Source: Selenomonadaceae bacterium
GTDB lineage: Bacteria > Bacillota > Negativicutes > Selenomonadales > Selenomonadaceae
Length of the DNA stretch: 39,194 nt
Reading direction: 5' to 3'
Assembly: GCA_017470715.1 (NCBI GenBank)
Contig: JAFUYE010000058.1
Location: forward strand, 1-39,194
Below are positions 1,816 to 39,100 of the stretch, piece after piece (within the stretch, counting starts at the first letter, position 1; each line of letters opens with the position of its first letter). The position numbers and the translations under genes are program-made. The notes beneath the pieces are model-generated. The model was not told the DNA's origin. It did not search any database and was given only the letters and a program-made list of their open reading frames with translations.

Positions 1816-2996
1816 GATTAGCAATTTTTGAAAACATAATGACGCCCGGCGGTCACGAAGTCGAATTCGACAGAATCATCGTCGAGGAATTTCGCGCGCT
1901 TGGTCACAGCGTCGAATTTTACGTCCCCGAAAATTTTACGTTCCAATTCGATTATCACACGCCCGTTAATCGGCTCAAGGGCGACGCCGTCACTTACACG
2001 AATTCACGCGGGTTGAAGAAAATTTTTGCCGCCGCCAAACGTGAAATCAATCGTCAACGCTGGTACAGTCAGCTTTTCGACGCACAAAAAAATTTCGACG
2101 CGCTGATTATCCCCACGTCGACTTACAGATATTTGCGGGCGTTGAATCACAGTTGCCTGAAAAAAATTTCCGTCCCGATGATTTTTATTTTGCACGGAAT
2201 CAATCCGACGGAGGCACCGAAATTTTTGGCAGAGGCGGACAAACTTTCGTCGAACAGAAATATCAAGCCCGTTGTTTTGACGTTCGGCGATAACATTTTC
2301 GGTGAGCGGCGCGAAAATATTTTTACGATTTATCCGCCGACATACACCGCACGCGACTTGAAAAAACAATTAGGAGTTAGGAATGAGGAATTAGGAATTA
2401 ATGACGAAACCATTTCAAATTCCAAATTCCAAATTCCTAATTGCTTGAAAGTCGGTTTCTTCGGTCAATATCGTCGTGAAAAAAATCTGCGCGGACTGCT
2501 GGAAGTTTTTTTACGCGGCAACTACACCCGCAAAGTTAAATTGCAAGTTCAAGGCTCGACGATGCACGCGGAAGACTCGGACGACTTTGAAAAAATTATC
2601 AAGCAGTATTCGGGCGACGAACGTTTAAGTTTCCTGCACAAAGGTTTAATCGGTGCCGAGTGGCAACATGCGATTTTCGGCGTCGACGCGTTGTTGATGC
2701 CGTATTCTGCGGAGCGATACCGTTATCATTGGGGCGGAATGCTTTTCACGGCGATTGGTTTCGGCAAGCCCGTTGTCGCCTCAAACGACATGAATCCCGA
2801 AGTTTTCGACATGTACCGTGTCGGCGAAACTTTCACCAGCGGAAATTTGGACGAACTTGCCCGCGTGCTCGAAACTTTTATCAACGACTTCGACAAAAAT
2901 TTTCCGACATACGCGGCGAACTTAAAATCGGCGGGCGAAAACTTTTCACCGGTCAACTTTGCGCGGCGGATTGAAAAAATTATTGCGTCAAGTTGA
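1812..2996 (+). CDS. GT-B glycosyltransferase with a heptad repeat inserted in frame
   Basis: 394 residues from a TTG start coupled to the previous stop. It has a two-domain GT-B layout. The N-terminal domain begins RLAIFENIMTPGGHEVEFDR. The C-terminal domain has a KVGFFGQYRREKNLRG strand and a donor-binding region with MPYSAERYRYHWGGMLF and GFGKPVVASND, as in GT4/GT1-like enzymes. The acceptor and sugar are unknown; the neighbours suggest LPS or flagellin glycan. Residues ~186-211 are encoded by a palindromic heptad element at 2368-2443, read as VRNEELGIND and onward, placed in the linker between the two domains without breaking the frame. A strong hairpin terminator follows. Confidence 0.8.
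   Translation: MRLAIFENIMTPGGHEVEFDRIIVEEFRALGHSVEFYVPENFTFQFDYHTPVNRLKGDAVTYTNSRGLKKIFAAAKREINRQRWYSQLFDAQKNFDALIIPTSTYRYLRALNHSCLKKISVPMIFILHGINPTEAPKFLAEADKLSSNRNIKPVVLTFGDNIFGERRENIFTIYPPTYTARDLKKQLGVRNEELGINDETISNSKFQIPNCLKVGFFGQYRREKNLRGLLEVFLRGNYTRKVKLQVQGSTMHAEDSDDFEKIIKQYSGDERLSFLHKGLIGAEWQHAIFGVDALLMPYSAERYRYHWGGMLFTAIGFGKPVVASNDMNPEVFDMYRVGETFTSGNLDELARVLETFINDFDKNFPTYAANLKSAGENFSPVNFARRIEKIIASS
2368..2443. repeat. Heptad palindromic element, GGAATTA type, inside a gene
   Basis: The left half carries CAATTAGGA followed by GTTAGGA, ATGAGGA, ATTAGGA units. The right half carries the inverse (AATTCC units) and ends TCCTAATTG, so the 76 bp can fold into one long hairpin. The same units occur at 32021, 33574 and 37548. 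This copy lies in the coding sequence of the glycosyltransferase and keeps the reading frame open. Confidence 0.8.
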
Positions 2997-9483: not shown

Positions 9484-12400
9484 TTATTTTTTCGTCCATT
9501 GAGCGGTATCGTGATTCGCCGCGTAAGTTTCGCCGTTGATTCGGAAGTCGACTTGAGCCGTGCTTTCGACGTTGAGTTGTCCGCCGTCAGCAAAGTTCAG
9601 CGTCACGCCCGTTGAAGTTATTTCCGTCGACAAAATTTGTTCAAGCGTCAAGCCGGTGAATTCGACAATGTCGCCGTCGCTTGCATTTTGAATCGTGTCG
9701 TTGCCGTTGCCGCCCGCCGTGTAGAAGAAAGTATTTTGTCCGTCGCCGCCGAAAAGTAAATCGTTGCCGTCGTCGCCGCCCCAAAGTGAAGCATCACCGT
9801 TGCCCGCGATAATCGTGTTGTCAAGTTCGTTACCGGCAATGAGCATTTCGCCCGTCGAATCGGACGCGTCAATCATTTTGATGTTGCCGTCGTAAAATTT
9901 TCCGTGTTGATTGTTCATCCAAATTTCTGCGCTCTCGTCGACAGTCAAAGTCGCGTTGTTGCCCGTGCCGACGAATTGATTCGCCATTGTGTTGTAGCGG
10001 AGATTTTCGCCGACGTTGGCAATCAAGTCATTGTATCGGAAATTTTTACCGTTCGCGTCCGCAAGCGTCAAACTGTTTTCGTCGTCAAATTTCAAGACAA
10101 CGTTGTCGCCCGAAAGCAAAACATTTGTAAGCGTGCCGCTGACTTTAAGCATGTCCGCGTTGCCGGAAAATTTATTTTCGTCGGTGAGGAACTCGAAATT
10201 TGAAACCGTGTCGTTGCCGTCGCCCGCGAAGAAAAAGAACGAAGTCCTGCCGTTTTTGGTTTCCGAGCCCGCTTTGCCGATAAGTTTGTCGTCGCCCGCG
10301 CTGCCCCACAAACTGCCGTAACCGTTGCCCGCAATCAAAGTTTCGTTGTTTGCGGAACCCATGAGCGTCGAAAGTCCGTCGCCCGCCGTCACCGTGTTAA
10401 TTCCGTAGAAATAAACGTCTTCGCCGTTGATTGTGCCGACCGCCTCTTCAGTCAAGTTGACCAGAATCGAATCATCAATGCCCGTGAAGTCGACGCCCGA
10501 ATTTTCGCCCGTGTAAATGTTTGCGAATTCGTTGCCCGCCGCGATAACCGAATCTTTTTGCGCAACGAAAGTTTTGTACTCATCGCCGTTCGTTTCGACA
10601 ACTTTAACAGCCGCAAAAGTTTCGCCGTCGCCGACTTCCGACAGAACCGTCCTGCCCGCGTCCGAACTTTCAACACTGACATTTGAGCCGTCGAAAATAA
10701 TTTCCCAATCGGGGTCGACAACAACCGCGTCACTGTTGCCGTCGAAACCTGCGCGGAAATTTTCGATTGTGTTTTTGCCGTCCGTAATGTCGATTGTCGC
10801 GCCCGATTTTGATTCGTCGCGTTCGTTCGCAGGCAAAAGTTCAATGTAATTGTTGCCCGCGCCCGCGTCGACGAAATTGCCTTCCGCCGCAAAAATCGTA
10901 TCGTTGCCGCTACCGCTTATCAACGTCGAATAAACGTCGCCCGACAAAAGCAAATTGTCCGTGAGGTTGCTTGCGTCCAACGAAGCGTAATTTTCCGCGA
11001 ATCCGACAATTTCACGCGTGTTACTTCTGTCGCTGTAGAGATTGACGATTTGGCTTTGCGTGCCGAAATCCGCAACCGCAGAGCCCATTGAAAGTTCACC
11101 GTTCGCGAAATCAATCGTGCCGTCTTTAATTTTCGCGGCAATGTCTGTGTAATTCAAGTTGAAACCGCTACGCGTCGTGAAGTCGTAGTTGTCAATCGTC
11201 ATTTTGCCGCCGAGCGGGAACAACCACGCATTGCCGCCCGTCGTCAAAGACAGGTGAACATTTTTGCCTTGACTGACAACCGTGTCGTCGCCCGCCGTAA
11301 TGTTGACACGCGCCGAAGTATCTTCGACAATCGCCAAACCGCCGCTCAACGAAATATCAAATCTGCCGTTGTCGTCCGCCGAAACGACGGAAACATTTTC
11401 GGGCTTGAAGTGGTCGACAATTTCGTCCGCCGAAGTGTTTTTCGTGATAAGCGGTCGAGCGGAATTGTAAATGTAAGCGTCCGTTCCGTTTTCAAGCCCG
11501 ACAAAAGTATCGCCCGCAGATGCCGTCAAAGTTTGTCCGTTGACCGTGTAATTGCCCGCGTCTGAAACAGTCAAGCTTGCGCCTTCGTCAAGTCCGACAA
11601 CTTCTTTATCGCGAATCCAAACGTCATTGTCGCCCGTCAAAGTGAATTTGCTTTCGTTGACAGCCATTGATGCGCCGGTCTGTTGCAACCAAATTTTATC
11701 CGCGTCTTCGGTATCGAGTTCGGAGCCGTCCGCCACGTCGTGAATATAAATTCTGTCGTCGAACGCGCCGATTGACGAAAAGTATCCGTCGAACATGCCG
11801 CCGATACCGTTAATCATGACTGCGTTTGACGGCTCGCTGAATTGCAAATTGCCTTCGACGTTCGAGATGTTCGAGAGAATTTCATATTCGCCGGAGAACT
11901 CAAAAGTAATGTTGTCGTCGCCCGTGACGGTAATGGCAATCGAATCGTCCTTCGTCGCGCCGAAAGTGAAAGTTCCTTCCGTGTCCGTGTGAATTTTGCT
12001 TGCCGAACCGACACTTGCCAAAGTTGCGCCGTCACTCAAGCCGAAAAGTTCAACGTTGCTGTTACCGCCTGCGACAACGGAAACATCTTTGTCGCCGAAA
12101 AGCTGAATGCCTTTGTCGCTGCCGTTGATACTGACTGCGCCGCCCGTAAAGTCGCCGCTGACCGTGCCGTTCAAGTCGTTGATTTTGTCTGCGTAGGGAG
12201 CCGAATCAACGTCGAATCGCGCACGAATTCCCGTACCGAGTTCCGTACCTTCGGCAAGCGTGTAAGTTTTTTTGCCGATTGTAAATTTGCCCGTCGTGTC
12301 CGTGACAAGGACGTAATAGCTCAATGTGTCTTCGTCGTCGAGAGTTGCACCGCCGCTGATTGACGCGCCGTCAGAAATTCCGATAACGTCTTCCAAACCG

Positions 12401-15400
12401 ATCGGGTCTGTTCTGATTCGATATGAACTGTCGCCCGCCGCAATAAATTTTTCCGTGAAGAGTGAACCGACATACGGCGAATCGAGATAGCCGAGATATT
12501 CTTCGCTCTCTGTGGTGAGCGTGCGGCTGAAAACAAAACCGTCCTGCGCGCCCGTGACGGTGATTATCATCGGAATTTCTCTGCCGTCGTCCAAACTCAA
12601 CGGGTCAAGCTGGAAAATTTTTGCGTCGGCAGTGACGTTGCCGGCTTCCGCCAACACGAAAGATTTTCCTTCGCCGAAACCGTTTGCAACAACATTCGCG
12701 CCTAACACGACGTTATCGGGTGACAGACTGACATTGCCGTTGCCCGCGAAAGTCATCCCGTCGTACGTGACAACGTCGTCGGTCGTCTTGAACGTCATGT
12801 AATCATCCGTCGCCGTCATGGAAATATTTTCGGCGGAAGTCGTGATTGTCTGCCCGTTGATAGTGTAAGTTCCCGCTTCCGAAGTCGTGAAATAAATCGC
12901 GGGCATAAAATCTTTCAAGTCGGTCGAAACGTCGGAGCCCTCGGCGATTTTAAAAATTCCGTGCCCGATGAAAACTGAACCGCTGTTAATGGTGAAAGTG
13001 CTTTCTTTGCCGTCGCGTTCCCAAGTGATTGACAGCGCGCCCGTGCCCGCAACGTAATTGGTGCCCTGCGCGGAAATTTCGATGTAGGAACCTTCGCCGT
13101 TGCTTTCAAGCGTGATATTGACGGGTTGACCGCCAATCGTTGAAGTTGCCGTAAGTTTTGAATCGGCGTCGAACAGAACTTTGCCCGCGTTGTAATGAAT
13201 CGTGCCGTTGAGGTTTGACAACGTCGTTTGAACGCCCGTCGCCGTCGTCAAGTCGATTGACAATTCGCCGTCGGAAGAAACTTTTATGCCGTCCGCGTCA
13301 AAGCCGATTGAGCCGCCCGCGTCGCTTGAAGACAAATTTAAAACAGTGCCGTCTTCCCATTCGAGATTAAGCGCGGTGTCTTTATCAAATGAAAAAGTTC
13401 CGTCTGTGTTTATCAGCAACGCGCCCGCCGTCACGTCGAGTGTCGCGCTGCGTTCCGTGTCGCCCGTAACGAAATTCAATTCGAGTTTGCCGTCGCCCGC
13501 GTTCGGAGCAAAACGAATACCGTCATCCGTGAACGAAAAGTTTCCGCTTGCGTCGTCGAGTGCCGTGACTTCCAACGAATTTTCGTCGCCGTTGCTTAAC
13601 GTCAACACGGTGTCTTTTTTCAGCGAAAGTTCCTGTGTCGAGGGATTCAAGCCGACAGTGCCGTCGATTACGAGCTGATTTTCAAAAGTCGTTTCGCCAT
13701 CCTTGCTTACGGTGAATTTCAATTCGTGTTTGCGGGCGTTCGGGAAATTGAATTCGATTGTGCCGTCGCTGGTGACTGTCGGAACGAAAACAATCGTCGT
13801 GTCGCAGGTCGACATTTTGATTCCCGTGCCGTTATCAAACAAAATTTCTGCGAAAGTGTTTGAACCGTTGCCGTGTGAACTGTTGCCGCCCGTCAAGCCG
13901 TAAGTGCCGCTTTTCGGACTGAAACTGAGCACGCCGCCGAGATTCAAATCGCCCGCAAGAAAAGTTTGTTCGCCGCTTGCGATTGAAATATCAACGGACT
14001 TGTCGTCGTCGAGTTCAAAGTAAAAAATTCCGTCTTCGACTTTGTAAGACGCGGAAATTTCTTCGCTTGCGGTAAATGTGATGTCTTGCCCGCCGCGATT
14101 GACGGAAATTTTTGTGCCCTTCGGAATTGAAATTTTGTCGTTGTCGAAAGTAATTGAGCCGCTTAAAAGTTTGAGGTCTGTGCCCAAAACTGCAGTGTCG
14201 CTGTCTTTAATCGTCACGTTGAAGTTACTGCCGTCGTCGTTCGGTGTGACGATAATTTTTCCGCCGTCGGAAGAAATATTTACCGGCGCGTCGTCGTCTT
14301 TGCCCGTGAAAGAAATCGTGCGGTCGTCGTCGACAAAAGTAACAGTCGCATCTTTCGACAAAGAAATTTCGTCACCGCTGACGCTGACATTGCCGTTGCC
14401 GCTGAAATTGTAATCGTTGTAATTGATGCCCGCGTCCGCCGCGAAAGTAATAGTGTCGTAATCGGTCATTGTGACTTCGGCGAGGTCTTCGGTCGCGGTA
14501 ATTTCCATGCCGTTGAGCGTGTAATTGCCCGCCGTTTCGAGCGCGAAAGGAAATTCGTCGTCGTTTGTTTTGAAGGTACTGCCTTCGGATAAACTTAACA
14601 ACCCCTGCGATTTTCCGCTGAAGTAATCGGTTATCGCGCCGTTTTGTAAATTCCATGTTGTGCCCTGCAGGTAATCCATAACGAAAGTTGCGCCTTCGTT
14701 GGCTTGGTAAATAATTCCGTCGGTGCTGAAATGCAGGGAAGTCGTGCCGCCCGAAGTTCGCAAAACATTATCGTCATAGTTGCCCGAAGGGTCGACGAAT
14801 CGAATTTCGGTGCCGTCGGTTGCGGTAAACGTGCCGCCCTTGTAATTGACCGTGCCGTCAACGGAGGCGAGTTCGATTATGTCTTTGCCATCAATCGTCA
14901 AAAGAACGTCGAGAGCGTCGGGCGTGGCCGGTGTCACCGACAAACCGTCTTGCGGAGACAAAAAGATTTTACCGCCGGCATCTTTCTTTGCGGTAATCGT
15001 CAAATTTCTGCCGTCCTCAAAAACAGTTTTAAGCACGGTATCTTTCGTCAAAGAAATTGATCCGTCGAGGTTGTAAGTCAAAGAACCCGTCATATCGAGT
15101 GACGCCGTGCGCGTTTCGCCGTCGCGTGTCACGGAAACTCTCAATTTGCCGTCGTCTGCGTTGGGCTTGAAATTAATTCCGTTTTCCGTCAAAGACAATT
15201 CGCCGCCCGCCTCGTCGGTTGTCGTCGCCGTCAACGTGTAATCGTTCAAAGTTGTAGTAACGCTTGTGCCGCCCGCAAGAACGAAAGTATGGTTCGTGAA
15301 ATTGCGAATCGCCGTGCCGGAAACGTCAAAGTTAAGTGTGTTGCTGCCCATCAATACAGCCACATTGAATTTTTCGGAACTGATGGCGAACGCTTCGGAC

Positions 15401-15816
15401 GTTATCGAGAATTCGGCGGATTTTTCAACCGTGAATTCATAATCGGCACGGGAATGCGTTCCCGCGATAAAAAATTTTGCGGCTCCCGTTGTAACTTTAT
15501 CGCTTGTGACGGTGGCGGTGCCTTCGCTGAATTTGAATTGTCGCCCGCCGAGCGTGACGGCAAGTGAGTCGTCGTCCGTTGCAGAAAAGTCAATCGCGCC
15601 GTCGGTTGCGTCGAAAGTTATTGTCGGGGAATTTTCCGCCTCCGTGAGCGTCGCTTGAACTTTGCCGCTTGCAAGTCCCGAAATTTTTTCGTCGTCGTCG
15701 AGATTGAAAACCGCGTCGGTGAGCGCAGTGTAAGTTACGCCGTCAAGTTCGTAAGTTTCGCCCGCAGAAATTTCCTGCGTCGCGAATCGTTGTAAGTCGA
15801 AAGTAAATTTGCTCAT
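9484..15816 (-). CDS. Giant repetitive surface or secreted protein with RTX-like C-terminus
   Basis: 2110 residues, very acidic, apparently without cysteine, and composed mostly of degenerate beta-rich repeats of roughly 70-90 residues. Recurrent phrases are AGNYTVNGQTLTA, AGTYTINGQTITT and AGNYTLNGMEITA; also SGNGNVSVSGD and AGNGNVSLSPD. The last ~350 residues contain imperfect RTX/haemolysin-type motifs such as GSAGDDKLIGKAG, GDGNDTVSNFE and GGNGNDTIQNASDGD, implying calcium binding and type I export. It has no classical signal peptide; it starts MSKFTFDLQRFA, a leader I associate with Selenomonadaceae proteins (from memory). The start has AGGAGTG upstream. Likely an adhesin or S-layer-like protein; no secretion genes are adjacent. 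Confidence 0.8.
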   Translation of the reverse strand: MSKFTFDLQRFATQEISAGETYELDGVTYTALTDAVFNLDDDEKISGLASGKVQATLTEAENSPTITFDATDGAIDFSATDDDSLAVTLGGRQFKFSEGTATVTSDKVTTGAAKFFIAGTHSRADYEFTVEKSAEFSITSEAFAISSEKFNVAVLMGSNTLNFDVSGTAIRNFTNHTFVLAGGTSVTTTLNDYTLTATTTDEAGGELSLTENGINFKPNADDGKLRVSVTRDGETRTASLDMTGSLTYNLDGSISLTKDTVLKTVFEDGRNLTITAKKDAGGKIFLSPQDGLSVTPATPDALDVLLTIDGKDIIELASVDGTVNYKGGTFTATDGTEIRFVDPSGNYDDNVLRTSGGTTSLHFSTDGIIYQANEGATFVMDYLQGTTWNLQNGAITDYFSGKSQGLLSLSEGSTFKTNDDEFPFALETAGNYTLNGMEITATEDLAEVTMTDYDTITFAADAGINYNDYNFSGNGNVSVSGDEISLSKDATVTFVDDDRTISFTGKDDDAPVNISSDGGKIIVTPNDDGSNFNVTIKDSDTAVLGTDLKLLSGSITFDNDKISIPKGTKISVNRGGQDITFTASEEISASYKVEDGIFYFELDDDKSVDISIASGEQTFLAGDLNLGGVLSFSPKSGTYGLTGGNSSHGNGSNTFAEILFDNGTGIKMSTCDTTIVFVPTVTSDGTIEFNFPNARKHELKFTVSKDGETTFENQLVIDGTVGLNPSTQELSLKKDTVLTLSNGDENSLEVTALDDASGNFSFTDDGIRFAPNAGDGKLELNFVTGDTERSATLDVTAGALLINTDGTFSFDKDTALNLEWEDGTVLNLSSSDAGGSIGFDADGIKVSSDGELSIDLTTATGVQTTLSNLNGTIHYNAGKVLFDADSKLTATSTIGGQPVNITLESNGEGSYIEISAQGTNYVAGTGALSITWERDGKESTFTINSGSVFIGHGIFKIAEGSDVSTDLKDFMPAIYFTTSEAGTYTINGQTITTSAENISMTATDDYMTFKTTDDVVTYDGMTFAGNGNVSLSPDNVVLGANVVANGFGEGKSFVLAEAGNVTADAKIFQLDPLSLDDGREIPMIITVTGAQDGFVFSRTLTTESEEYLGYLDSPYVGSLFTEKFIAAGDSSYRIRTDPIGLEDVIGISDGASISGGATLDDEDTLSYYVLVTDTTGKFTIGKKTYTLAEGTELGTGIRARFDVDSAPYADKINDLNGTVSGDFTGGAVSINGSDKGIQLFGDKDVSVVAGGNSNVELFGLSDGATLASVGSASKIHTDTEGTFTFGATKDDSIAITVTGDDNITFEFSGEYEILSNISNVEGNLQFSEPSNAVMINGIGGMFDGYFSSIGAFDDRIYIHDVADGSELDTEDADKIWLQQTGASMAVNESKFTLTGDNDVWIRDKEVVGLDEGASLTVSDAGNYTVNGQTLTASAGDTFVGLENGTDAYIYNSARPLITKNTSADEIVDHFKPENVSVVSADDNGRFDISLSGGLAIVEDTSARVNITAGDDTVVSQGKNVHLSLTTGGNAWLFPLGGKMTIDNYDFTTRSGFNLNYTDIAAKIKDGTIDFANGELSMGSAVADFGTQSQIVNLYSDRSNTREIVGFAENYASLDASNLTDNLLLSGDVYSTLISGSGNDTIFAAEGNFVDAGAGNNYIELLPANERDESKSGATIDITDGKNTIENFRAGFDGNSDAVVVDPDWEIIFDGSNVSVESSDAGRTVLSEVGDGETFAAVKVVETNGDEYKTFVAQKDSVIAAGNEFANIYTGENSGVDFTGIDDSILVNLTEEAVGTINGEDVYFYGINTVTAGDGLSTLMGSANNETLIAGNGYGSLWGSAGDDKLIGKAGSETKNGRTSFFFFAGDGNDTVSNFEFLTDENKFSGNADMLKVSGTLTNVLLSGDNVVLKFDDENSLTLADANGKNFRYNDLIANVGENLRYNTMANQFVGTGNNATLTVDESAEIWMNNQHGKFYDGNIKMIDASDSTGEMLIAGNELDNTIIAGNGDASLWGGDDGNDLLFGGDGQNTFFYTAGGNGNDTIQNASDGDIVEFTGLTLEQILSTEITSTGVTLNFADGGQLNVESTAQVDFRINGETYAANHDTAQWTKK

Positions 15817-24338: not shown

Positions 24339-24419
24339 ACTAGGAACTAGGAACTGGGGACTAGAGACTAGTTTACTCGTTTCTACTGGTTCCTGGTTCC
24401 TAATTACTGGTTCCTAGTT
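24339..24419. repeat. Heptad palindromic element, GGAACTA type, without a gene
   Basis: The left half has direct GGAACTA-like units ending ACTAGAGACTAG. The right half has inverted units (TACTGGTTCCTGGTTCC and TGGTTCCTAGTT). The whole 81 bp folds as a long hairpin and shares its units with the cassette at 27231-27698. It lies just outside the prophage. The rest of 24420-24583 shows only a weak hairpin. Confidence 0.8.
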
Positions 24420-25801: not shown

Positions 25802-27217
<1,416 letters not shown>

Positions 27218-27230
27218 TCAACTCCTTTGG

Positions 27231-27698
27231 TAGGAACTAGGAACTAGGAACTAGGGACTAGGGACTAGAGACTAGAGACTAGTTCCCGGTTCCTAAAAAC
27301 TAGTTCCTAAGCTTTTTTATGATTGTGGTGAGCAGGCGTCCCGTTTCGTTACAAAGTGACAAGGTCGCCTCAATATCTTCCTGCGTGAAATAACCGATTC
27401 TGACGCAAAGTAACATTTGAGTTTCGACTTCGGCAACCGATCCGCGTGAAATAATTAAAAATCTCACGTAATCTCCCGTTGAAGCTCGTCCGTTACCTTC
27501 CGCAATATTGGAAGGTACAGAAACTGCTGCTCGGCGCAACTGATTTGTCAAACCGTAAAGTTCATCTTTCGGCATTTTTTTAGTCAATCGGTAGACTTCA
27601 ACGGCAAGATCCATTGCTTTCTGCCAAACGATTAAATCCTTATAATGCAAAATCTGTAACCTCCTTCAGAAACTAGTTCCTAGTTCCTAGTTCCTAGT
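27231..27698. mobile_element. Heptad-ended cassette carrying a four-helix-bundle gene
   Basis: The ends are inverted arrays of 7-bp units: TAGGAACTAGGAACTAGGAA at the left and the reverse complement (units of TTCCTAG) at the right, ending three bases before the atpG stop codon triplet boundary. The left array also contains degenerate GGGACTA and GAGACTA units and an internal inverted piece. The only gene inside is the 116-residue four-helix-bundle protein, whose stop codon is supplied by the repeat. The cassette sits exactly between atpG and atpD. Gene-free versions lie at 24339 and, with related units, elsewhere in the window. Confidence 0.7.
27300..27650 (-). CDS. Four-helix-bundle protein (23S rRNA IVS / S23 family)
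   Basis: 116 residues matching this family closely: KDLIVWQKAMDLAVEVYRLT, LTNQLRRAAVSVPSNIAEG, RFLIISRGSVAEVETQMLL, and a final helix ending TIIKKLRN. The family was first noted as the open frame inside 23S rRNA intervening sequences of Leptospira and others, and is structurally related to the Avd accessory protein of diversity-generating retroelements, a nucleic-acid binder. AAGGAGG lies before ATG 27650. The last three residues and the stop come from the flanking heptad repeat. Its place in the atp operon is not expected; it probably came in with the repeats. Confidence 0.85.
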   Translation of the reverse strand: MHYKDLIVWQKAMDLAVEVYRLTKKMPKDELYGLTNQLRRAAVSVPSNIAEGNGRASTGDYVRFLIISRGSVAEVETQMLLCVRIGYFTQEDIEATLSLCNETGRLLTTIIKKLRN

Positions 27699-28817
27699 CT
27701 ACTCCAAAGCGTTTGCACCGCCGACAATTTCGTTGATTTCGTTGGTGATGCCCGCTTGACGAACTTTGTTGTAAAACAGATTCAACCTGCCGACGAGTTC
27801 TTGAGCGTTGTCGGTTGCATTACTCATTGCGTTCATGCGCGAAGAAAGTTCCGACGCCGCCGAGTGAAGCATTGCGCCGTAAATTCGCGTGGCCAATCTG
27901 CGCGGCAAAAATTCATTCAGAATCGACATAACGTCCGGTTCGTAAATGTATTCTTCCTTGAGATTCGCGCTTGCCTTCGCGTAGTCGTCCGTGACAAGCG
28001 GCAACAAAGTCACGTCGTCCGGCACGCAACTGATTGCAGATTTAAATTGCGTGTAAATCAACGTCACGTCGATAATTTCACCGCTTGCGTAACGTTCCAT
28101 GACCAAATCGGCAATTTCTTTCGCGTACTTGTACTGCGGGCGTTCGCTGATTCCGTGATAACTTTTGATGATGTTGTAGCCGCGCTGTTGAAAATGCGTC
28201 GTAGCTTTTCTGCCGACGGTGATAATTTCGATGCCGTCAATATAAGCCGCGTCGTTGTATTCGCGTGCAACGGAAACATTTGCGCCCGAAGACGAACCGC
28301 CGCCGTGAGCAGCTGCACGAGCCACACCGCCCGTCGCGTTCATTTGACGTTGTTGCTTTTGCGTGCGATGTGCGATTGGTTTGACTGCATTGAGCGCGTC
28401 GAAATTTTTCTTGTGGAAATTTTCGTCGTCGCCGTCGTCGTCCATTGAAGTTCCCGTGTCCGTGCCGTCGTATTCAATCGTGTCGTGCGCCTCTTTGAAG
28501 ACGTTGCTTGCGAACGAGCCGGCAAGTCCTTTATCCGAAGCAATGACGATAAACAGAAACTTGCCGTCCGCGTTTTGCTGTTCGGCAATGAGTTCGTCGC
28601 GTGTCTTCAAAAACGGGTGTTCGTATTCGCGCCCACGCATTTGGGAGACAACTCGCCGCATAATTTCCTTGGTTTTGTTGACGTAGGGAATGTTCGACAG
28701 CAAAGCATCACGAGCCGCGTTGAATCGCGAACGGGCTATCATGTCCATTGCGTTGGTTATTTTTTGAATGTTTTTGACGCTTTTGATTCGGCGGCGAATG
28801 TGTTGTAAATTTGCCAT
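27699..28817 (-). CDS. atpG: ATP synthase gamma subunit with an ~80-residue insertion
   Basis: 372 residues against about 285-290 normally. The N-terminal helix (ANLQHIRRRIKSVKNIQKIT) and C-terminal helix (ARIYGAM-like TRIYGAMLHSAASELSSRM, RQAGITNEINEIVGGA) are conserved. The extra length is at residues ~113-194, between the strand FIVIASDKGLAGSFASNVF and IEIITVGRKATTHFQQRG. The insert begins acidic (MDDDGDDE), becomes basic and Gln-rich (HRTQKQQRQ), and ends in AAAHGGGSSSG; it looks disordered. It lies in the globular Rossmann-like part, as does the regulatory insert of plant and cyanobacterial gamma, though the sequence differs. Confidence 0.93.
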   Translation of the reverse strand: MANLQHIRRRIKSVKNIQKITNAMDMIARSRFNAARDALLSNIPYVNKTKEIMRRVVSQMRGREYEHPFLKTRDELIAEQQNADGKFLFIVIASDKGLAGSFASNVFKEAHDTIEYDGTDTGTSMDDDGDDENFHKKNFDALNAVKPIAHRTQKQQRQMNATGGVARAAAHGGGSSSGANVSVAREYNDAAYIDGIEIITVGRKATTHFQQRGYNIIKSYHGISERPQYKYAKEIADLVMERYASGEIIDVTLIYTQFKSAISCVPDDVTLLPLVTDDYAKASANLKEEYIYEPDVMSILNEFLPRRLATRIYGAMLHSAASELSSRMNAMSNATDNAQELVGRLNLFYNKVRQAGITNEINEIVGGANALE

Positions 28818-32020: not shown

Positions 32021-32100
32021 CAATTAGGAATGTGGAATGAGGAATGAGGAATTAAATCCGCCGAAACAATTCCTAACTCCTATCTCCTAATTCCTAATTA
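32021..32100. repeat. Heptad palindromic element between atpE and atpF
   Basis: The left half is CAATTAGGAATGTGGAATGA and related units, the right half the inverse, ending CTAATTCCTAATTA. It folds into a long hairpin of 80 bp. The atpE stop codon TAA lies on its edge. It belongs to the same unit type as the elements at 2368, 33574 and 37548. Confidence 0.8.
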
Positions 32101-33573: not shown

Positions 33574-33650
33574 GCAATTAGGAGTTAGGAATTAGGAATT
33601 AATTTTGTAATGTAATCATTCCTCATTCATAATTCCTCATTCCTCATTGC
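33574..33650. repeat. Heptad palindromic element between atpB and atpI
   Basis: GCAATTAGGAGTTAGGAATT and onward on the left, inverted ATTCCTCATTCATAATTCC and CATTGC on the right, 77 bp in one hairpin. The last codons and stop of atpI lie in it. Confidence 0.8.
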
Positions 33651-36176: not shown

Positions 36177-39100
36177 TTGGCGATTAAAATTAAAACCGGT
36201 CGGGCGGTCAAGCCGACGATTTACGCATACACGACGCCGGGCGTTTCGTATCACGACGGCTGGATAAAAATCGGTTACACGGAGCAAGAAGTTGACAAGC
36301 GGATTAATCAGCAGTCGCACACGATAGATGTTTATTGTCATCCCGAATGGCACGGCGACGCGATTTTTACCGACGGCAGCGGCGACACGTTCACCGACAA
36401 AAATTTTCATGCGTATCTTGAGCATTTGGAAATTCAACGCAAGCGCGGCACGGAATGGTTTAAAACGGACGGCAAAACTTCGGAGAAACATTTTAATGAC
36501 TTCCGAGCGAATCGCGGCGCGTTAAAAATTGATTCGGTGACGCCCTACAATCTGCGCGACGAACAAAATCTGGCCGTCGAAATGACGTTGGCTTATTGGC
36601 AAAATCACGCGGGCGGAAAATTTTTGTGGAATGCAAAACCGCGTTTCGGCAAGACGTTGGCGGTTTACGATCTGTGCAAACGAGCCGGCGCGCAGAATAT
36701 TTTAATCGTGACGAATCGCCCCGCAATCGCGAATTCATGGTACGCCGACTACAAAAAATTTTTCGGCAACGCGGAATATCTTTTCGTCAGCCGAGTTGAC
36801 GCGCTCAAAGGTGAAAAATTTGTTTTGACCCGCGAAGAATACAACGACGAATTAATCAACCGCGACGACGCGAAATGTATCGAATTCGTCAGTCTGCAGG
36901 ATTTGAAAGGCTCCAAATATTTTAAAGCCGACAGTGACAATGACAAGCTCCGCGAAGTTGCCGAGATTAATTGGGATATTTTGGTTGTCGATGAATCGCA
37001 CGAAGGAGTTGACACCGATAAAACCGAATTTGCTTTCGACCTAATCAAGCACAAGTTCACGTTGCATTTGTCGGGCACGCCGTTTAAAGCTTTGGCGAAA
37101 AAAGATTTTCCTGCCGACGCGATTTTTAACTGGACATATGCCGACGAACAATCGAAGAAAATTTCGTGGACGGGCGACGACGAAAATCCCTACGCCGAAC
37201 TTCCGCAACTGAATTTGTTCACCTACAAGATGTCGGACATTGTCGCGGACGAATTGAAACGCGGCGTCGAAATCAACGGCGAGACCGTCGAATATGCGTT
37301 TGACCTGAACGAATTTTTTGCGACGGACAAAGGCAAGTTCCTGCACGAAAGTTCCGTTGATAAATTTCTTGACGCGTTGACGACACAGAAAAAATTTCCG
37401 TTTTCGACGGACGAACTTCGCGACGAATTGCGCCATACGCTTTGGCTTTTAAATCGCGTGGAAAGTGCCCGACTGCTTGCGGCGAAATTAAAAACTCATC
37501 CTGTTTTCGGCAAGTACGAAATAATTTTGGCGGCGGGCGACGGAAAAACAATTAGGAATGAGGAATTAGGAGTTAGGAATTGTAGCGACGCGGATTTGAA
37601 AAATTCCTTCAAACGTGTTACTGACGCGATAAAAAATTTCCCGCGAACGATAACGCTGTCTGTCGGGCAACTGACGACGGGCGTGACGATACCCGAATGG
37701 ACGGGCGTTTTAATGTTGGCGAACATGACAAGCCCGCAACTTTACATACAGGCGACATTTCGCGCACAAAATCCGTGTTTGTTTCAACGCGACGGAAAAT
37801 TTTTGCGCAAAGAAAATGCTTACGTGTTCGACTTCGACCCTGCGCGGACGCTGAACATTTACGAAACTTTTGCGAACGATTTGGCGTCGAACAGAGCCGA
37901 CACGTTGGAACGTCGACAAAAAAATATTCGCGAGCTGTTGAATTTCTTCCCGGTCATCGGCGAAGACGAACGCGGCGAAATGATTGAACTTGACGCGGAA
38001 GAAGTTTTGTCCGTGCCGAGAAAAATTCGCTCCGTTGAAGTTGTGAAACGCGGCTTCATGAGCGATTTTTTGTTTCAAAATGTTTTTCACGTGTTCAACG
38101 GACAGCCCGAAGTTGTCGACATTATTTCGCTGTTGCCCGCCGTGAGCGAATCCGAAATCGAATTGCCGACGAAAGTTCGCGAGACCGCCGAAAAAATTCA
38201 TCTTGACGAAAACGGCGAAGTTGACATTCCGCAAGAATTTGTAATCGGGCAGGCACAAGAAATTTTCGGCGATAAAGTTTTCGCGTCGACCGAATCAACC
38301 GAGCAACCGAAAATTAAATCTGTCGTTGCGGAAATTTTAAACACGGCGAAGGAACATTACGGCAAAGATTTTTCCGACAAAAAAACTTTGGAAACCAAAC
38401 TCAACGCGGCAGGCACTCAAATTGTCAAGCACGTCGAAGAGCAACGCAAAATCGAAGTAAAACTTATCGAGAACGAGCGCAAGACCGCTTTGAAAAATTC
38501 TTCGACGAGCGGACAAACGGTCGCCGAAATCAACGCGGAATTTGACGAACGCAAGCAAGTTGCCGAAGAAAAATTTCACGCGACGTTGACCGAAAAAATT
38601 AACGACTTCGCGCAGGCTGCCGAAAAAATCGTTGTCGAGACTGTCGAAACGAAATTTGAACAGACAGCTGCCCAAACCGTCACGGACGAAGTCAAAGCTC
38701 ACCTGCGCGGCTTTGCACGAACAATTCCGTCGTTTTTGATGGCTTACGGCGACGAAAACACGACGCTTGCGAATTTCGACAAAATTATTCCCGACGAAGT
38801 TTTTCGGGAAGTCACAAGCATTTCACTTGAGCAATTCCGTTACCTGCGCGACGAAGGCAATTTGTTCGACCCCGTGGTTTTCGATGATTCGGTGCAGGAA
38901 TTTTTGCGTCTGCGGAAAAAACTTGCCGACTACTTCGACGAAGGGCACGACGAAGATATTTTTGACTACATTCCGCCGCAACGCACGAATCAGATTTTCA
39001 CGCCGAAAGACAGCGTAAAATTTATGGCGGACATGTTGGAGCGCGAAAGCCCCGGTTGTTTCGACGACCCCGAAAAAACTTTTATAGATCCGTACATGAA

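Follow-up and report, generated by a model that had tools for sequence, protein, structure and literature searches.

A candidate small foldback element carrying an IVP gene between atpG and atpD of an uncultured Selenomonadaceae bacterium

The atpG and atpD genes of a draft genome from an uncultured Selenomonadaceae group are separated by an insert that consists of a gene of the 23S rRNA IVP family and of inverted arrays of short tandem repeats at its two ends. This insert is probably a copy of a small mobile foldback element, of which the intervening sequences (IVSs) of 23S rRNA would be the rRNA-inserted case, with the protein acting on the repeat. The protein family, the 23S IVSs and heptamer repeats are already known. 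In the open-access literature, no link of IVP genes to matched inverted heptamer arrays was found beyond the Coxiella IVS; judged by that literature, the intergenic cassette with locus-specific matching arrays, the gene-free families and the joint turnover of the two ends seem to be new, and an earlier description is possible.

The window, that is, the whole stretch of 39,194 nucleotides that was analysed, is contig C24 of a 2.91 Mb draft genome (G000). Its relevant features are listed in Table 1. The original prediction placed the cassette exactly between the stop codon of atpG and the ribosome-binding site of atpD, and this is correct, with the start of the insert one base off. The atpG stop codon is at 27699-27701 (minus strand), and the ribosome site of atpD, CTCCTTTG, extends up to 27229. 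As predicted from their GGAACTA units, the TAGGAAC-type array at 27231-27282 and the CTAGTTC array at 27673-27698 form an inverted pair, and 24 nt at the cassette ends (27231-27254 and 27673-27696) are 100% complementary. The only gene of the insert encodes, again as proposed, a protein of the S23/IVS type. It lies in the operon orientation with its own ribosome site, and its last codons, AAG CTT AGG AAC TAG, continue into the repeat; in other words, the stop codon is indeed part of the array. Folding of the insert RNA is predicted to pair the two ends (-161.6 kcal/mol, z -6.46), which fits removal from the transcript rather than proving it. It should be mentioned that CTTTGG (27225-27230) and CCAAAG-like letters (27704-27709) flank the insert and extend the inverted match past the arrays, possibly by chance. 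The window also contains an open reading frame of 2110 codons at 9484-15816 (-).

Table 1. Positions of the cassette parts, the adjoining operon genes and the gene-free repeats, numbered from the first letter of the window.
Feature	Position	Strand	Remark
Whole insert (469 nt)	27230..27698	.	Between atpG stop codon and atpD ribosome-binding site; empty junction in relatives
5' arm (gene sense)	27673..27698	-	Tandem ACTAGGA units
AAGGAGG, Shine-Dalgarno-like site of the IVP gene	27660..27666	-	Read from sequence
IVP gene, 116 aa, TTG start, stop codon inside repeat	27300..27650	-	PF05635 and TIGR02436
3' arm (gene sense): heptamer array 27231-27282 and reversed units to 27309, forming an inner hairpin	27231..27309	-	
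atpG, upstream operon gene	27699..28817	-	PF00231, 290.7 bits
atpD, downstream operon gene	25802..27211	-	PF00006, PF02874
Gene-free heptamer hairpin, GGAACTA-type unit as in the window cassette	24339..24419	.	
Gene-free heptamer hairpin, GGAATTA-type unit	2368..2442	.	
Gene-free heptamer hairpin	32022..32099	.	Absent from 7 of 9 relatives aligned
Gene-free heptamer hairpin, GGAATTA-type unit	33576..33648	.	
Gene-free AATTAGG array	37550..37581	.	

The atpG-atpD region was searched in 60 genomes of the genus, and the junction was compared at 30 loci (L163-L192; L190 without usable alignment) and at nine IVP loci, which are partly the same places. Empty sites in close relatives, which the prediction called for, are present: the junction is 2-14 nt long in many of them. 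It measures 5 nt in G016, a relative with 95% identity in the atpD-side segment, and this defines the insert as 27230-27698. The empty junctions carry no array. This means that both arrays belong to the insert, and the sequence comparison confirms the window cassette as a precise insertion. Sister species differ in whether this junction is occupied or empty, and several distinct cassettes are found at it. Those of L036, L038, L043, L049 and L058 have period-8 arrays and proteins of one clade (support 94), and L051, at the same junction, has a stop codon within its IVP gene. L076, L078 and L116 form a second protein subgroup. Because the window protein falls outside both groups, at least three separate occupancies of this hotspot seem to have taken place. 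L183 has a gene-free array at the junction. At L165, L173, L174, L184, L188 and L192 the junction holds what appear to be small reading frames in unrelated sequence of about 260-520 nt; L165 also carries a GGGACAA array.

Matches to PF05635 were found in 39 of the 60 genus genomes. As the threshold for matching ends, an inverted match score of 13 between the two flanks was used, and 48 of the 60 usable IVP loci of the genus reach it while 12 do not. Tandem arrays are present on both sides at 45 of these loci, with period 7 in 40 and period 8 in 5. Among the rplT controls, both-side arrays occur at 1/24 and matching inverted flanks at 0/24. Before this comparison, the IVP loci L035 and L066 had been dropped because a flank was shorter than 100 nt, as had six of 30 rplT loci (clipped or of other length). 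Left and right flanks taken from different loci reach the score of 13 in just 46 of 360 pairs, so the match is largely locus-specific. At L046, L050 and L062, arrays are present at both ends and their units disagree. For comparison, 208 genes of the genome that contains the window were scored; 8 of them reach 13, or 5/205 when three IVP genes are subtracted, and the fourth IVP gene of this genome (L001) scores 15. Thus the gene is linked to the end arrays, and relatives that have the gene without repeats, which would have spoken against a cassette, are not the rule.

The same arrangement is observed outside the genus. In other Bacillota, 23 of 29 IVP loci, a set without controls of its own, score at least 13, and L156 and L159 have period 11. 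All ten plasmid loci examined, out of 31 matches, reach the threshold; nine are cyanobacterial, some of them near-duplicates, and one is from Gemmatirosa. Named genome contigs were represented by the best 80 of at least 590 confirmed loci, found through one conserved peptide. Among the 78 usable ones (L265 and L308 were dropped), 61 score at least 13, as against 0/69 for distal windows of these loci. By record titles, the positives among these best 80 of at least 590 come from 15 bacterial phyla and one archaeal Methanophagales MAG, whose locus sits at the score threshold.

The loci sit in unrelated genomic contexts. When similar cassettes were compared, the majority of the closely related ones had homologous flanks and were thus inherited in place. 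Homology limited to the cassette at unrelated sites was seen in two cases only. One is L122, the gene of which has a deletion, compared with L081-L083. The other is the window cassette compared with contig C67 of G050, where the alignment is limited to 27245-27696 of the window; the atp junction of G050 itself has no IVP gene. Thus both marks of a mobile element, occupied and empty sites and the same element at unrelated sites, were observed. The multiple IVP copies of Calothrix PCC 7103 (G359) were rejected as proof of free movement, because they lie within a larger repeat. There are seven of them (L364, L369, L375, L381-L384), five nearly identical over about 2.07 kb and two less alike, and the repeat also includes a reading frame that resembles a transposase, presumably ISL3-like. 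The three copies tested for arrays, L364, L369 and L375, score only 9.

The end units differ from locus to locus and usually match between the two ends. At 96 period-7 loci, the upstream arm has an almost constant AG (A in 78/96, G in 95/96), and the aligned unit holds 4.55 bits compared with at most 3.53 in 30 shuffles put through the identical procedure, the loci being related and not independent. At orthologous sites, both arms tend to carry the same new unit: the outer flanks of L047 (GGTTTTA) and L057 (AGCTTTA) are 94% identical. In 41 orthologous pairs from 10 groups, which are not independent and whose atp group may mix separate insertions, the arm match within a locus is better than that across species in 31; 5 pairs are tied, and in 5 the cross-species match is better. 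The order of units is not mirrored between the arms (1 of 41 loci tested with P<0.05; Fisher combined P ~1), and therefore one arm is not simply a whole copy of the other.

Unit length partly follows the protein clade. On the protein tree, period changes 11 times over 121 loci, a count that left out 42 of 163 loci without a clear period, whereas shuffling gave a mean of 15.6 and a minimum of 12 (0/500). For the 45 genus loci, there are 2 changes compared with a shuffled mean of 5.8. The atp period-8 clade keeps its period, and its units all differ. A strict rule is contradicted by period 8 in scattered loci of other phyla and by L037 (period 8), which is closest to period-7 proteins. It would be an unusual way of evolving if the ends kept their unit length and exchanged its sequence on both sides together; such joint replacement would point to a copying process not yet described.

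The window protein is a member of PF05635 (140.6 bits, E 2.5e-41; curated cut-off 33.8), the 23S rRNA IVP family, and of TIGR02436 (135.9 bits; cut-off 24). Its relatives include the solved structures 2gsc and 2rld. A remote likeness to Avd is seen with NF033474 (E 1.9e-6, 28.1 bits, cut-off 80) and with bAvd (E 5.7e-4, 20.8 bits, cut-off 40). Pfam and NCBIfam scans found no recombinase or transposase domain in this sole gene of the insert, and we know of no transposase-like or nuclease domain in an IVP protein. The values of dN/dS, computed by an in-house script, were 0 to 0.25 in the 16 IVP pairs tested, which indicates purifying selection on the gene. Two other roles were considered and rejected. 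For a defence gene, the window protein matched 0 families of PADLOC-DB at E up to 1; for carriage by phages, a tblastn search of 50,697 phage records gave no match at E 1e-5. The family PF05635 ("four helix bundle protein", "S23"), which occurs widely, has no known function, and a general rule that its genes lie between locus-specific matching inverted arrays would give it a testable context. Such a rule would also bring two long-standing puzzles, where 23S rRNA IVSs come from and how bacteria came by their abundant heptamer repeats and hairpins, together in one class of element.

Arrays without a gene are numerous in the genome of the window. TAGGAACTAGGAACTAG with at most two mismatches occurs at 267 (overlapping) places, and the reversed control at 0. 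The stretches surveyed for arrays here and below were hand-picked from long contigs. Those of this genome, 252 kb in all, have 61 period-7 arrays, compared with 0-3 at other periods, except for 41 at the harmonic 14. With one run of N left out of the counts, 55 period-7 arrays were found in 539 kb of 16 other gene-bearing genomes and 5 in 260 kb of seven gene-less genomes; period-9 arrays (4 and 5, respectively) show no excess in gene-bearing genomes. The original prediction regarded gene-free elements as non-autonomous relatives of the cassette. Within the genus this is supported: 71 of 106 non-cassette arrays in 15 genomes carry a unit of the cassettes of their own genome, and the mean own-genome fraction is.515 compared with.147 on random assignment (0/2000 permutations). 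The window genome contributes 43 of the 71; the distinctive cases are G047, G051 and G002, and G021, G016, G034 and G055 share none. Most gene-free hairpins of the window have GGAATTA-type units, which match cassette L004 of the same genome. Of the relatives aligned at 32022-32099, G016 and G055 have the hairpin, built of other units, and the seven others have 25-34 nt of AATGCG-type sequence at this site instead. Outside the family, the same claim is less clear. In a test that took in only 24 IVP loci of eight genomes, units are shared by 16 of 87 arrays (own fraction.228 compared with.065; 7/2000 permutations), clearly in Thiohalocapsa (5/7) and Chloroploca (6/12), and in six cyanobacterial genomes by just 5 of 68.

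The proposed likeness to IVSs is borne out by L193, L157, L198 and L204, the four loci covered by the rRNA location test. They lie inside 23S rRNA and have inverted ends of the same kind, with scores of 16, 14, 19 and 18, and classical IVSs and intergenic cassettes therefore share their anatomy in the loci seen. The IVSs of Leptospira, Coxiella and others resemble the window cassette in the S23/IVP family, in a size of about 0.4-0.5 kb and in complementary ends that form a long stem around the reading frame. In contrast to them, the window cassette lies between protein genes of an operon and not in a 23S rRNA gene, its ends are locus-specific arrays, and gene-free relatives share its unit. For the Coxiella IVS, the available part of one report describes two to three tandem heptamers upstream of the ORF and a 28-bp terminal stem (PMC4990558).

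Other repeated elements are similar in part. Foldback transposons such as Drosophila FB have long inverted ends made of short tandem repeats in variable number. The window element has such ends too, but its units vary from locus to locus, and we know of no relation of IVP to foldback transposon proteins. As with MITEs, REPs and REPINs, many short gene-free intergenic hairpins occur beside fewer gene-bearing copies. In contrast to these, the ends are tandem 7-mers without a fixed sequence; the family-conserved terminal inverted repeats of TIR transposons and MITEs are not found, as the units differ between loci, and the window genome lacks a match to the Y1 transposase (RAYT) of REP and REPIN systems. 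A diversity-generating retroelement, in which Avd is an accessory, would show Avd above its cut-off with an adjoining reverse transcriptase, whereas this insert has a sub-threshold relative alone and no reverse transcriptase. Tandem intergenic 7-nt units are also described, in the available text of the reports concerned, for GGGAATC in Xanthomonas, where many form inverted pairs, GGGGA(C/T)T in Nostoc and TAACTGA in Beggiatoaceae (PMC4692102, PMC4679880, PMC4476775). Complementary 7-nt repeats are likewise reported in the P6b stem of Nostoc trnL (PMC4476775). The unit GCTGAGT of L354 (Nostoc sp. CHAB 5844) fits the Class II motif NNTGAGT given in part of that report; this single match could link the trnL P6b repeats, the origin of which is unexplained, to an IVP element.

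A working model can be put together as follows. The element would consist of a 5' arm array, the IVP gene and a 3' arm array, each arm being a tandem short unit, usually of 7 nt, with the AG of the 5' arm nearly fixed. Since the units of one arm are inverted copies of those of the other, a single strand of RNA or DNA can fold so that the gene lies in the loop. The IVP, which belongs to a family of pentameric four-helix bundles and is a remote Avd relative, might recognise the repeat in the folded arms. It would thereby promote the spread of its own cassette and of gene-free hairpins with its unit, and out-of-register pairing during copying might homogenise the arms. In transcripts, RNase III would cut the stem, as the available part of one report describes for 23S IVSs (PMC4990558), which could make insertion in rRNA or between operon genes tolerable.

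Different models were weighed against this one. The host itself might make and turn over heptamer hairpins by slippage and template switching, the IVP gene landing or being retained inside them. The abundance of arrays and hairpins without a gene, including those of cyanobacteria with units mostly unlike the sampled cassettes, would be expected from this, and slippage together with out-of-register pairing would account for arms that share units but do not mirror their order. In addition, the heptamers of Xanthomonas, Nostoc and Beggiatoaceae are described, as far as the available text goes, without a link to IVP or PF05635 (PMC4692102, PMC4679880). However, the empty atp sites have no array, gene-less genomes of the genus have few arrays, other genes of the array-rich window genome are rarely bracketed, and the arrays of each genome share units with its own cassettes. 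A passive role of the gene therefore seems unlikely. A fixed cassette, the hairpin ends of which control the IVP gene or the operon mRNA while the protein binds its own transcript, would agree with the long paired RNA ends, the operon orientation and own ribosome site of the gene, the frequent inheritance of orthologous cassettes and the processing of 23S IVSs by RNase III. It would involve no movement, and we consider it still less likely, since occupied and empty junctions alternate in sister species, distinct cassettes share one junction, the genomic contexts are unrelated and gene-free hairpins are polymorphic.

Movement driven in trans by a reverse transcriptase or by a Y1 (REP-type) transposase, IVP being an accessory like Avd, appears very improbable. 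The remote Avd relationship and a somewhat higher frequency of PF00078 matches in gene-bearing than in other draft genomes of the genus (16/39 compared with 4/21, cross-tabulated by hand with IVP presence, as was PF01797) point toward it. Against it, 23 of the 39 gene-bearing drafts, including G006 (99% complete), gave no PF00078 match. PF01797 (Y1) had no match in G000; it was found in 7 of the 60 drafts, five of them gene-bearing, and was absent from 34/39 gene-bearing ones. A required partner of either kind is unsupported by these counts.

The preferred model of a mobile foldback element with an IVP that acts on the repeat can be extended. IVP proteins might run a class of mobile elements that do without a transposase and a reverse transcriptase. 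In such elements, both cassette ends and new intergenic sites would receive short tandem units written or transferred by the protein, with a unit length (7, 8 or 11 nt) tied to the protein lineage. The 23S IVSs would be rRNA-inserted members, and many unexplained bacterial heptamer repeats and hairpins would be gene-free offspring. This extension is doubtful at present.

IVP genes in cas loci near Cas4 and Cas6 have been reported earlier, with no mention of arrays in the available part of that report (PMC3936711). In Anabaena sp. 90 pANA02 (L216) and Pseudanabaena galeata pPg_01 (L217), cas6 and cas4 of a CRISPR locus are separated by an IVP cassette whose heptamer arrays match, and a type I-D Cas1 is annotated in L216.
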